Of a DNA stretch of 64,000 bases, positions 18,701-55,406 are shown in pieces. The number at the start of each line of letters is the position of its first letter. Position 1 is the stretch's first letter. The position numbers were made by a program, and so were the translations under genes. The stretch is taken from contig NZ_CP016379.1 of NCBI RefSeq assembly GCF_003991135.1, positions 1,178,001-1,242,000 of the forward strand. The letters run 5' to 3'. Below the pieces are notes generated by a model, which had not been told where the DNA came from, ran no database searches, and saw only the letters and a program-made list of their open reading frames with translations. The DNA comes from Anoxybacter fermentans. GTDB taxonomy: Bacteria > Bacillota > Halanaerobiia > DY22613.

Positions 18701-18735
18701 CCTTTTTCCTCCCTTCCCTATTAATGAATGATTAA

Positions 18736-18943
18736 ACTGCAAAAAGCTAATTTTGAGCGACATAGAAATTTTTCGTTAAACCATCTTAGTGAGATTTCAG
18801 TCGAAATAAGGCCTCATATGAGGATGTGATGAGCTAATCAAGGGTCAGGATGACCCATTGATTAGTGTGCCTTATTTCGACTGAAATCGAACTTTAGATG
18901 GCTCGAAAAATTTCTTTGAAGCGAAAAATTAGCTTTTTGCAGT
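18736..18943 (+). repeat. Near-palindromic intergenic repeat, copy 2 (reference copy)
   Basis: This 208-bp element runs from ACTGCAAAAAGCTAATTTT to AAAATTAGCTTTTTGCAGT (ends perfectly complementary). The arms fold inward through AGAAATTTTTCG / CGAAAAATTTCT, AAACCATCT / AGATGG and TTTCAGTCGAAATAAGG / its complement, to a central hairpin CTAATCAAGGG...CATTGATTAG. A small side hairpin (CCTCATATGAGG) breaks the symmetry and defines orientation. It lies between the ligase stop (19040) and the exporter ATPase start (18700). Confidence 0.92.
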
Positions 18944-19039
18944 AAAATCATTAATGCATAAAAGATTTAAACCCAATAGTTCTGCATTTTATTTTAGGAC
19001 AAAATTTTCACAAAAATTTCACACATTCTAAAAAAATCA

Positions 19040-50390: not shown

Positions 50391-53300
50391 CTAAATATCT
50401 TTTAATGGTATAATCTCATCACCTATCAAATTATAAATATTTCTATCTTTTTCTATTTTAATTTTAACCAGAACCATATTTCCTAAAAAAAGATATTTCT
50501 TATATTTTGATACAACAGGTTCAAAGACTGTTACTTCTACAGTACCTGTCAAATCTTCAAGAGTAAAAAAACAGACCAGTTTTCCACGCTGGGTCCAACG
50601 GAAACGAATATCGGTAATCTCTCCTGTAATCCAGACCTGCTCTTTTTCCGTTTCCATTAATTTATCAATCGATAGTAAATCCTTACTTTGAGGAATAAGA
50701 TAGAATAAAGAACTACCGCTAACTGGATGGCCCAGAGTCTCAAGTTCCCAACTTAAAATATCCCTAAGCTCCATTTCTGGAATTTTTTCTGTAAAAGCGC
50801 TAATTTTCGTTGTCAGATAAGGTAAACAGCGAAGTTGACCTGTACTTACCTGATGTTTCTTAGCTTCTTTAAAAATTTTATTTAAACTCCAGAGAAGTTG
50901 CATCCGATCACCGAACCTATCAAAAGCTCCGGCTTTAATCATATTTTCCAGAACCAAATAATTGATAAGACCCAAATTTACCCGATGACAGAAGTCACTT
51001 AATGAATGATAACTTCTTTCTTTTCGTTTTTGAATAATCTCCTCTGCTGCACGCCTTCCCAGACCTTTAATCATCAAAAAGCCCAGTCGAATCTTTTCAC
51101 CATCAGTAGTTGCTAAAAACTGGCTCTCATTTATGTCAGGAGGCAATATTTGGATATTGCGATATCTGGCCTGATTCAAATATTTACGAAATCGACATTC
51201 AAATTGTAGATTTATATTCAATAATGAAGTCAAATATTCTACCGGATAATGGACTTTAAGATATGCAGTAATATAAGCAATATGAGCATATGCAACAGCA
51301 TGAGCTTTACATAAACCATACTTGGCAAATTTATACAACTTATCAAAAATATAATTTGCTTCAGCTGATGTTAAACCACGGCTCATGGCACCTTTTATAA
51401 ATTTGCTTTTCTGCTCTGCCAATAAAATCGGATCTTTTTCAGCAATTGCTTTTCTTAATACATCTGCTTCTCTTAAACTAAATCCTCCTAGTTCCCGGGC
51501 AATCATCATCACCTGTTCTTGAAAAATTACCACACCATAGGTGTCCTTCAATAATTTTTCAAGGAGGGGATGTAAGTATTCTACCTCCTCTTCTTTATTA
51601 AGACGGGCAACAAAACTCTGTAGCATCCCTCCTTCAATGGGCCCTGGACGATAAAGAGATGTAGCAAACATAATTTCTTTTAAGGAGGTAGGTTTCAACT
51701 GCTGTAACAACTTGCGACAACCTCCACTTTCCAACTGAAAACACCCAATGGTATCTCCTTTTTGGATCAAATTATAGGTTTTACGATCATTTAATGGAAT
51801 TTTTTCATAAGTAAGATTAACACCTTTTGTCTTTTTAAGAAGTTTTAAAGTAAATCTGATTGCAGACATAAAACGAATTCCTAACAAATCAATTTTCAAA
51901 AGTCCCAATGCTTCAATAGCCCGCATATCAAACTGGGTGATCACTTCTCCATCCCGTGAATATTGCAATGCCGTATAATTGGTCAAAGAATCTGGAGAAA
52001 TAACCACACCTGAAAAATGATGGGTAAAATGGTGGGGTAACCCTTCCAATTTTTGTGCGGTATCAATCAATTTTCGAAAGGCAATATTCTTATAATAATT
52101 CTGCTTAAATTCTCTACTGTTTGTTGGTGAATCTATTTGATGAATATTTTGATGAGAAATAAATCGGGTAAGGGAAGTCAATTTCCCTTCAGGCCAACCT
52201 TGAACCCGGGCCACATCTCTTACCACCGCTGCAGACGCCAAAGTACTGAAAACTGAAATATGTGCCATGTTTTCTTGACCGTATTTGTCAACAATATATT
52301 GAAGAATCTTTTTACGGCCAATATGATCAATACCCAGATTGATATCAGGCATTGAAATTTGCTCCGGATTCAAAAAACGTTCAAAATATAGGTCATACTC
52401 AACCGGATCAATAGTAGTGATCCTTAATAAATAGCAGACCAGACTGCTGACTGCACTGCCCTTTCCAACAGTCAAAATCCCTTGCTCGCGAGCATACCTG
52501 ACAATATCCCACATGATAAGAAAATATCCTGCATATCCCATTTTATTAATTACTTCCAATTCGTACTCCAGACGCTTTATCAATTCAGTAGAAGGAGATT
52601 TGCCATACCGTTCATGTAGTCCTTTATAACAGAGAAACCGCAAATAAGATTCACTGGTATATCCAGCCGGTACCGGAAATTGGGGAAAGTGTAATTCTTC
52701 TAAATCTAAAAAGATATTACAGCGTTCAGCAATACTTATGGTATTACTTATAGCTTCAGGAATATCTTTGAAAAGTTGCTCCATTTCTTCAGGACTTTTT
52801 AAATAATATTCATCCCTGATCTTATCATTCCTGATCTTACGTGAATCAATCTTTTTAACTGAAAGTTCCCGAATTCCCATCAATATCTTATGGGCTTCTG
52901 CATCCTCCCTTTTTAGATAATGTACATTATTTGTCGCAACGACAGGAATATTTAATGTCCGAGCCAGCATAATTTTCTTTCTAATTAGTTCTTCTTCACC
53001 CGGGAGTCCAAACCGCTGTAATTCTAAATAATAATTGTTCTGCCCCAGGATATTTCGATATTCCAATGCAATCTCCTTAGCCTTTTTATAATCTTTTATA
53101 ATCCATTCATCCAATTCACTTACTCTACAACCACTCAAAACAATTAATCCCTGTTTATAAGTTTCCAACATAGAACGGGTCACAAGACCATTATTGTCAA
53201 GATTAGATCTGGTGATCAGCTTTAACAGATTGGTATAACCCAGGTTATTTTTCGCAAGAATAGTAAGATGATAATGACACGAAGAGTAATCCTGTATAAT

Positions 53301-53519
53301 AGGTCCCACATTCAGTTCCGCACCAATGATGGGTTTAATCTGATACTTCTGTGCCAGTTGATAAAAGCTGATAACACCGCTAATATTATGGTGGTCTGTA
53401 ATTGCCAATGCTTTAACCCCCTTTCGTTCTGCTTCAATAAATAAATCTTCAAGACGACATAAACCATCCAACATACTGTACTCTGTGTGTAGGTGTAGAT
53501 GACAAAACTCTTTCTTCAT
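50391..53519 (-). CDS. dnaE: DnaE-type DNA polymerase III alpha subunit with altered catalytic motif
   Basis: This 1042-residue C-family polymerase starts at ATG 53519 after AAGGAGGG. The PHP domain is at the N-terminus (HLHLHTEYSMLDG, TDHHNISG). The palm follows, with GKGSAVSSLVCYLL and FERFLNPEQISMPDINLGID (about residues 375-394). In DnaE this last motif is normally PDxDxDF; here the second catalytic Asp is Asn and the following Asp is Gly. The third catalytic Asp is kept in KIDLLGIRF. A helix-hairpin-helix (IKGLGRRAAEEIIQKR) and a C-terminal OB fold are present. Activity may be reduced or lost. Two LexA-box matches lie in the promoter, suggesting SOS control. Confidence 0.92.
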   Translation of the reverse strand: MKKEFCHLHLHTEYSMLDGLCRLEDLFIEAERKGVKALAITDHHNISGVISFYQLAQKYQIKPIIGAELNVGPIIQDYSSCHYHLTILAKNNLGYTNLLKLITRSNLDNNGLVTRSMLETYKQGLIVLSGCRVSELDEWIIKDYKKAKEIALEYRNILGQNNYYLELQRFGLPGEEELIRKKIMLARTLNIPVVATNNVHYLKREDAEAHKILMGIRELSVKKIDSRKIRNDKIRDEYYLKSPEEMEQLFKDIPEAISNTISIAERCNIFLDLEELHFPQFPVPAGYTSESYLRFLCYKGLHERYGKSPSTELIKRLEYELEVINKMGYAGYFLIMWDIVRYAREQGILTVGKGSAVSSLVCYLLRITTIDPVEYDLYFERFLNPEQISMPDINLGIDHIGRKKILQYIVDKYGQENMAHISVFSTLASAAVVRDVARVQGWPEGKLTSLTRFISHQNIHQIDSPTNSREFKQNYYKNIAFRKLIDTAQKLEGLPHHFTHHFSGVVISPDSLTNYTALQYSRDGEVITQFDMRAIEALGLLKIDLLGIRFMSAIRFTLKLLKKTKGVNLTYEKIPLNDRKTYNLIQKGDTIGCFQLESGGCRKLLQQLKPTSLKEIMFATSLYRPGPIEGGMLQSFVARLNKEEEVEYLHPLLEKLLKDTYGVVIFQEQVMMIARELGGFSLREADVLRKAIAEKDPILLAEQKSKFIKGAMSRGLTSAEANYIFDKLYKFAKYGLCKAHAVAYAHIAYITAYLKVHYPVEYLTSLLNINLQFECRFRKYLNQARYRNIQILPPDINESQFLATTDGEKIRLGFLMIKGLGRRAAEEIIQKRKERSYHSLSDFCHRVNLGLINYLVLENMIKAGAFDRFGDRMQLLWSLNKIFKEAKKHQVSTGQLRCLPYLTTKISAFTEKIPEMELRDILSWELETLGHPVSGSSLFYLIPQSKDLLSIDKLMETEKEQVWITGEITDIRFRWTQRGKLVCFFTLEDLTGTVEVTVFEPVVSKYKKYLFLGNMVLVKIKIEKDRNIYNLIGDEIIPLKDI

Positions 53520-53540
53520 TGAAAATTCCCTCCTTATGTT

Positions 53541-53561
53541 ATTATATAGAACATATGTTCT
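53541..53561 (-). promoter_or_regulatory. dnaE promoter -10 box with LexA box
   Basis: A perfect TATAAT (minus strand, 53541-53546) is directly preceded by the palindrome AGAACATATGTTCT (53548-53561). Its core fits the Firmicute LexA consensus GAACRNRYGTTY exactly. LexA bound here would cover the promoter. The -35 box is poor. Confidence 0.7.
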
Positions 53562-53591: not shown

Positions 53592-53603
53592 GAACAAGTG
53601 TTT
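53592..53603. promoter_or_regulatory. Second LexA-box match upstream of dnaE
   Basis: GAACAAGTGTTT also fits GAACRNRYGTTY. It is centred about 43 bp upstream of the first box, i.e. four helical turns, on the same face of the DNA. Confidence 0.55.
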
Positions 53604-53813: not shown

Positions 53814-53845
53814 ATAACAGAATATCTATATTAATTAATGATTTT

Positions 53846-54054
53846 ACTGTAAAAAGCTAATTTTTAGCTTCAAGAGAAATTTTTCAAACCATCTAAAATT
53901 CGATTTCAGTCGAAACAAGGCACACTAATCAATGGGCCCTCCTGGCCCTTGATTAGCTCATCACATCCTGTGATGAGACCTTATTTCGACTGAAATCTCA
54001 CTAAGATGGTTTAACGAAAAATTTCTATGGTGCTCAAAATTAGCTTTTTGCAGT
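53846..54054 (-). repeat. Near-palindromic intergenic repeat, copy 10
   Basis: A 209-bp full copy in the orientation opposite to 18736, with CTAATCAATGGG...CCCTTGATTAG at the centre and CATCACATCCTGTGATG as side hairpin. The left end has one change (ACTGTAAAAAGC). Flanks ATTAATGATT and AATCATTAAT are themselves complementary. It lies between the pmbA stop and its terminator. Confidence 0.92.
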
Positions 54055-54074
54055 TTAATCATTAATAAAATCGT

Positions 54075-55406
54075 TTATCTACCGGTAATAGAAACACCTT
54101 CAAACTGAATATATGGCGTGTAACTGGATTCAAAGTTTTCCACTTCATTAGAAAGCTGTGATATTTGGTTAAGCATCTGATAGAAATTCCCAGCAATCAT
54201 AACTTCCCGAATAGGTTGAACGATCTCACCATTTTCAATATAGTAACCGCCTTTTACTACCCCAGAAAAATCACCACTGATGGGATCAGAATTTCCTGAG
54301 AAACGATTAACCAGAATCCCACGTTTAATATCCTGAATCATTTCCTCCAAACTAACATCACCGGGTTCAATCATCAGATTGGTAGCAGAATTGGTAATAC
54401 TTTGATCATTTCCGGAAGCATGACCAGTAGAAACAGTATTTGCTTTGAGAGCAGTACGATTAGTATGAAGGAAGGAATTTAATTGTCCTTTAGTAATAAT
54501 CGGCAATCTAATAGATGGTACACCTTCACGATCAAAAGAACGTGAATAGTATCCATCAGCAAAAGTAGGATCATCTACCAGGGTTAAATTATGACTAGAG
54601 ATCATCTCACCCAACTTTTCTTTTAAAGGTGACATTCCTGTTACCACAGCCTCACCCCTTAAAACAAAAGATAAGGGTTGTAAAAGAATATAGTGGATAG
54701 CCAGAGGCGATAAAATAACAGAACCTTTAAAACTGGGAATTGACTTAGCTCCAAGAGTATTTACTACTTTTCTGGCCAGTTTCTCACTTTTCTCCCGTAT
54801 GGGAAGTTTTTCAAAGTTAGAACCTGAAATAAACTCCACATTAAAAGATGAAATATCATCTCCATCCCGTGCAAAACCAATTAAAAAACATTCATATAAA
54901 GTTCGATCTTCCCTTACCGCCTGGCCCCTGGAATTAGCGATAGCTCTGGAGATAAATGAACCCTTTACATTGGCAGAATCCAATGTAACCCGCGAATCCC
55001 GTAAAACTGTCTCCATAATAATACCCGCTTGTTCAACAGCTTTTTCTGCTGTCAGACTAAATCCATTAGGATCTATTAATCCCTCTAAAATTTGTACAGG
55101 TTGTGGATCTGGAAGTTGATTATAAGGACTGGCTGTACTCATTTCTGCCAGATCCAGTGCCCCCTGTAAAGTCTTTTCAATGGAAACCTGATCGAGACGA
55201 TTGGTAGCAGCAAAACCCACTTTATTATTTTTAATGACCCGGATTCCGATTCCCTCATAATCATCAGCTTTTGGAATCTGAAGGTCATTTTTCTCAATCA
55301 TTACTTCTATTTTTTTCTCTTTATGATAATAAACTTCAATCTCATCTGCTCCAAGAGAACGACCCTTTTCTACAATCTCCTGACATAATTGTAGATCTTT
55401 CATCAT
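54075..55406 (-). CDS. pmbA: TldE/PmbA-family protein, second pair
   Basis: This 443-residue TldE-type protein lacks the zinc motif. It shows GIGIRVIKNNKVGFAATNRL (about residues 46-65) and SGDFSGVVKGGYYIENGEIV near the C-terminus, both typical of PmbA. The first or second ATG (55406 or 55403) could be the start; GGAGGGG lies just upstream. It is downstream of the second tldD by 12 bp. With TldD it should form a peptidase that unfolds and cleaves small proteins or peptides. It differs clearly from the pair at 21-24 kb. Confidence 0.9.
   Translation of the reverse strand: MMKDLQLCQEIVEKGRSLGADEIEVYYHKEKKIEVMIEKNDLQIPKADDYEGIGIRVIKNNKVGFAATNRLDQVSIEKTLQGALDLAEMSTASPYNQLPDPQPVQILEGLIDPNGFSLTAEKAVEQAGIIMETVLRDSRVTLDSANVKGSFISRAIANSRGQAVREDRTLYECFLIGFARDGDDISSFNVEFISGSNFEKLPIREKSEKLARKVVNTLGAKSIPSFKGSVILSPLAIHYILLQPLSFVLRGEAVVTGMSPLKEKLGEMISSHNLTLVDDPTFADGYYSRSFDREGVPSIRLPIITKGQLNSFLHTNRTALKANTVSTGHASGNDQSITNSATNLMIEPGDVSLEEMIQDIKRGILVNRFSGNSDPISGDFSGVVKGGYYIENGEIVQPIREVMIAGNFYQMLNQISQLSNEVENFESSYTPYIQFEGVSITGR

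Follow-up and report, generated by a model that had tools for sequence, protein, structure and literature searches.

An extra, LexA-box-associated DnaE of Anoxybacter fermentans with replaced active-site aspartates that most likely no longer polymerises DNA

The Anoxybacter fermentans genome contains an extra DnaE-type polymerase gene, here termed dnaEX, whose palm motif has asparagine and glycine in place of two near-universal aspartates, in an otherwise uninterrupted reading frame. The gene was found in the window, the 64,000-nucleotide stretch of DNA that was analysed, and all coordinates below refer to it. The best explanation of the whole, which we hold tentatively and with slightly less than even confidence, is that this is a LexA-controlled extra DnaE that would have lost the ability to polymerise but would still be produced as a protein, with a non-catalytic role as the favoured one.

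The dnaEX frame (50391..53519, minus strand) runs from an ATG at 53519 to a TAG at 50391, with 1042 codons and no stop or frameshift, and is preceded by a ribosome-binding site, AGGAGGG (53528..53534, minus strand, read from the sequence), 8 nt 5' of the ATG. The PHP, palm/NTPase (DNA_pol3_alpha), fingers, HhH_6 and OB domains are all detected above Pfam cut-offs, in frame and in that order. The AlphaFold model has a mean pLDDT of 87.4, and its closest solved structures are DnaE alpha subunits; by domains and predicted fold, the protein is a C-family DNA polymerase of the DnaE type. Two TPR genes 3' of dnaEX are also found 3' of the orthologue in the nearest relative (G001, from a related genus and the only other genome of family f1 compared), with one additional gene in between there. 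A gene for a 611-aa membrane-like protein (L070 5686-7518, G001) lies directly 3' of that intact orthologue and is missing at this place in the window. Just upstream of dnaEX, a MITE-like imperfect-palindromic element of ~240 bp occupies 53825-54085 and stops short of the LexA boxes (vide infra); a second copy lies at 18721-18955, the terminal inverted repeat is 53 nt long (77%), and there are at least 40 chromosomal copies with 90-95% identity.

The palm motif, PDINLGID (residues 391-398, counted from the ATG; 52326..52349, minus strand), is encoded by CCT GAT ATC AAT CTG GGT ATT GAT. A preliminary description of this DNA had read the unusual Asn (AAT) and Gly (GGT) here, and both codons were confirmed at 52349-52326 of the minus strand. 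It had also equated the first two motif aspartates with D401 and D403 of Escherichia coli DnaE; an alignment that is gap-free in this stretch indeed places D401 on D392 and D403 on N394, with D405 on G396 and D555 on D544. Relative to E. coli DnaE, dnaEX therefore carries D403N and D405G and keeps D401 and D555. The last of these, the third catalytic Asp, lies in LLKIDLLG (codon at 51888..51890, minus strand) and was located both by the E. coli alignment and by a comparison of 154 aligned DnaE-type proteins drawn from many phyla. In the latter, Asp occupies the D401 and D555 positions in every protein and the D403 and D405 positions in 153 of 154, the sole exception being the dnaEX protein. 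The motif is thus as unusual as the preliminary description had supposed, and its statement that the rest of the protein is in frame agrees with the 1042 uninterrupted codons and the five Pfam matches.

A survey of ~2000 genomes describes D401, D403 and D555 as absolutely conserved across the C-family, with D405 present in all DnaE groups (PMC3919608). Of the three aspartates that mark an active C-family polymerase (E. coli D401, D403 and D555), dnaEX has Asn at D403. In Bacillus subtilis, growth needs each of the three catalytic aspartates of DnaE, and DnaE D382A/D384A (equivalent to the D401/D403 pair) gave no primer extension; with a single Asp-to-Ala change at the D403 position, B. subtilis DnaE no longer sustains growth and the E. 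coli enzyme has little or no activity (PMC5627055). With the metal-binding D403 and its neighbour D405 both lost, and with further changes in the palm and fingers, dnaEX should no longer extend primers, and by these comparisons the protein has most likely ceased to polymerise, although the retained D401 and D555 could leave some residual activity.

The chromosome (3,557,532 bases in one contig, 100% complete) contains three C-family genes: DnaE1 (1133 aa, PDIDIDF, intact), PolC (1461 aa, intact) and dnaEX. The preliminary description had proposed a search for a second canonical dnaE or polC elsewhere, and both are present; because DnaE1 and PolC are intact in the same genome, dnaEX is an extra copy. 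Possession of PolC assigns the genome to the PolC-bearing phyla (PMC3919608). The non-catalytic paralogue that it offered as one reading of the motif is well supported by these two polymerases, by the intact orthologue in the nearest relative and by six further changes at near-universal positions. The single Y-family gene of the genome is DinB-like, ImuB was not found in the genome, and the only RNase_T (DnaQ-type) match in the genome lies inside PolC.

Among 59 genomes of the class that were searched, copies of this extra DnaE are present in both genomes of family f1 (that of A. fermentans and its nearest relative) and in five of the six genomes of another family, f4. With a profile built from the copies of f1 and f4, full-length members reach 1770-1890 bits, and every other DnaE stays at or below ~1130. 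In trees, the copies of these two families group together (99), and with them second DnaEs from Atribacterota and from two further families of the phylum; DnaE1 and two plasmid DnaE2s fall outside this clade. Whole-clade support against DnaE1 is 92-100, varying with the tree. A wider contig scan for relatives returned DnaE1s and two Atribacterota copies. The separate clade and an Asn at the PHP D226 ligand distinguish dnaEX from DnaE1. Identity with DnaE2 was considered and rejected, as dnaEX is distant from the two annotated DnaE2s in the tree and reaches 685 bits, where the NCBIfam cut-off for the error-prone polymerase is 939. For the Bacillus-type DnaE3, NCBIfam scores were below the cut-off, and the trees contained no Bacilli DnaE. 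One f4 genome also encodes a third, strongly diverged DnaE (942 aa; L167, G013:C133:3500-9500), which sits on a very long branch and departs from the consensus in 16 of 90 near-universal columns.

Two LexA-type boxes precede dnaEX. The first, AGAACATATGTTCT (53548..53561, no strand assigned), is a perfect LexA/SOS-type box that is conserved before orthologues. The 3.56 Mb genome contains six perfect AGAACNNNNGTTCT sites in total, this one included, and a control pattern occurs once. Others of the six lie between lexA and a yneA-like LysM gene and before a yneB-like resolvase, and recA of this genome has a 7/8 LexA-type site. The second dnaEX box, AAACACTTGTTC (53592..53603, minus strand), matches at 7/8 positions and is perfect before the orthologue of the nearest relative, as GAACACTTGTTC. 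A LexA-like palindrome is found shortly 5' of the start in all f1 and f4 copies. When matches of at least 7/8 within 150 nt of the start are counted, with the Atribacterota copies left out, a box precedes 15 of 19 clade copies vs 1 of 128 DnaE1-type genes (Fisher p = 5e-16). The f4 copy of genome G004 (L075, G004:C150) is cut by the contig end after 544 residues, with its LexA box and start intact. A sigma-70 scan gave no promoter-like site at the dnaEX LexA boxes. dnaEX has a box upstream in a genome with both lexA and recA, and on the basis of these sites it is probably SOS-induced by DNA damage.

The PHP domain also departs from the exonuclease pattern. Residue N198, in ATNNVHY (codon at 52926..52928, minus strand, by alignment), occupies the position of the zinc ligand D226 of Mycobacterium tuberculosis DnaE1, and Asn at this position is common to dnaEX, the orthologue in the nearest relative and most f4 copies. 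As D226N abolishes the exonuclease of M. tuberculosis DnaE1 (PMC5636811), the ancestors of dnaEX were probably already without PHP proofreading. Of the nine ligands expected of a PHP exonuclease, dnaEX has Asn at D226, the other eight having been read by eye. Many other error-prone DnaEs likewise lack PHP proofreading.

The orthologue in the nearest relative, 71% identical to dnaEX (the two DnaE1s are 73% identical), retains the palm motif PDIDLDLD, along with PDIDLDLDHIGRKK and GRGS. Since its motif is intact, the Asp losses lie on the branch to A. fermentans, and one transition per Asp codon suffices (GAT to AAT and GAT to GGT). In 96 near-universal columns, with conservation of 97% or more across 127 other DnaEs, dnaEX alone deviates at eight and the orthologue alone at two. 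The eight changes are R362K, R396Q, D403N, D405G, R506H, K714E and F756L in E. coli numbering, plus P937S in its own numbering; the six besides the two Asp losses arose on the same branch, mostly in the palm and fingers, and are spread over ~1.8 kb. The first corresponds to K353, in GKGS in place of the E. coli GRGS (codon at 52461..52463, minus strand, by alignment). Two Atribacterota DnaEs related to DnaEX (L097 and L136) also have GKGS in place of GRGS, with the catalytic aspartates intact, and R362K alone was for that reason rejected as proof of inactivity. The changes at 362, 506 and 714 are the weaker evidence, because these same positions vary in Atribacterota copies with intact aspartates. 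F756 and H760 are four residues apart, and H760 has been proposed as the steric gate of E. coli DnaE (PMC8485763); the His itself is kept in dnaEX.

At columns invariant in four f4 paralogues, dnaEX and the orthologue have 10 vs 4 unique changes in the palm region, 6 vs 10 in PHP and similar numbers elsewhere. The contrast between the palm and the rest is not significant (p = 0.11), and the excess of dnaEX changes in the palm is only suggestive. When the relative rates of DnaEX and DnaE1 were contrasted at outgroup-invariant columns, the difference was not significant either (p = 0.25). The end branches of A. fermentans and its relative are 0.31 vs 0.20 for dnaEX and 0.15 vs 0.26 for DnaE1; the longer dnaEX branch also fits relaxed selection. 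Synonymous differences between the two genera have reached saturation (pS 0.74), so that no branch-wise dN/dS ratio was obtained.

A polymerase that is still active, in which D392 and D544, perhaps with N394 or Asp398, hold the metals and confer an altered metal or substrate preference, is improbable. The retention of D401, D555 and the steric-gate His and the intact fold of the AlphaFold model would fit such an enzyme, but replacement of the D403-position Asp by Ala is by itself enough to remove growth support in B. subtilis and most or all activity in E. coli (PMC5627055), and further near-universal residues are gone as well. The preliminary description had suggested that the shifted Asp of LGID might be used instead, an idea that is not supported: the intact orthologue already has this Asp398, which is separated from the lost ligand by four residues of a predicted beta strand (394-398), a distance of ~13 A estimated from strand geometry only, so that it is not a new compensatory ligand. 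An error of sequencing or assembly at the two codons is more improbable still. The change is known from one isolate, and the codons differ from Asp codons by only two bases in total; however, the genome is a single contig, 100% complete, and the error would have to coexist with six more lineage-specific near-universal changes over ~1.8 kb and no frameshift.

The more substantial alternative is that a non-essential SOS polymerase was recently inactivated and is becoming a pseudogene, its frame intact only since the loss is young. We regard this as a real possibility, although one that falls somewhat short of an even chance. The Asn/Gly change is known from one genome and one isolate, and a loss confined to one lineage, several altered near-universal residues, an end branch that exceeds the orthologue's for this gene but falls short of it for DnaE1, and the retention of DnaE1 and PolC by the cell are all compatible with early decay. 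Against it stand the 1042 codons with neither stop nor frameshift, the preservation of both LexA-type boxes and the ribosome-binding site, the lack of any excess of changes in PHP, fingers, HhH and OB, and an identity to the orthologue that resembles that of DnaE1. If every codon were free to change, the excess at conserved columns would imply ~90 neutral substitutions and 3-5 expected stops, and none is seen. The probability of no stop is ~0.03-0.06 for an excess of six changes and ~0.12 for an excess of four, without the two aspartates that flagged the gene; if indels are assumed to arise at 0.08 per substitution, the former value drops to ~0.002. The absence of stops speaks for constraint on the remainder of the dnaEX protein but is no proof of it. 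On balance, the chance that dnaEX has been kept for a non-catalytic role, rather than being in early decay, appears to be about even.

The ancestors of dnaEX were probably active polymerases of the error-prone type. Under retention for a non-catalytic role, DNA damage would lead to cleavage of LexA, and full-length dnaEX protein would most likely be made; in the favoured but unproven final step, the protein may bind primer-template or replisome partners without extension, as a scaffold or competitor. There is precedent for both elements, as B. subtilis DnaE with Asp-to-Ala changes enters the replisome and poisons synthesis (PMC5627055), and ImuB is a dead SOS polymerase retained as a partner (PMC12926913). 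That dnaEX is a natural, selected, polymerase-dead DnaE which, once induced by damage, brakes the replication fork or serves as a scaffold there, occupying primer ends or replisome contacts as a C-family counterpart of ImuB, may be entertained but is unlikely.

The comparison with known systems is partial in each case. Like the DnaEX proteins of Timinskas et al. (PMC3919608), dnaEX is an extra, diverged DnaE beside PolC and DnaE1, with typical domain order, and is not the main replicase; in that paper, however, DnaEX is a catch-all label for leftovers and not a family, and the catalytic aspartates are called absolutely conserved. LexA control of DnaEX goes unmentioned in those of its passages that were consulted (the literature search covered open-access papers). 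DnaE2 is likewise an additional DnaE, is under LexA-type control and has a disrupted PHP site, but it is distant in the tree, its model scores dnaEX below the cut-off, no ImuB was found in this genome, and a catalytic Asp is lost in dnaEX. ImuB shares a polymerase fold without catalytic residues and a place in the SOS response, which makes it a working analogy only, since it belongs to another polymerase family and forms a broad conserved group, whereas dnaEX is one genome's case. The B. subtilis mutants (PMC5627055) have lost residues of the same catalytic triad, and the dead enzyme still enters the replisome, yet they are laboratory alleles of an essential DnaE, and dnaEX is a natural, dispensable-looking paralogue.

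The catalytic aspartates of the C-family have been described as exceptionless (PMC3919608), and dnaEX is a natural loss in an otherwise intact and apparently damage-induced copy. Cases in which non-catalytic roles of replicative-type polymerases can be put to the test are rare, and here a related genus supplies an intact orthologue for direct comparison. More broadly, these results suggest that a coherent clade under LexA control exists among the scattered DnaEX copies of bacteria with PolC, and this clade is likely to be the counterpart of DnaE2 where DnaE2 is rare.
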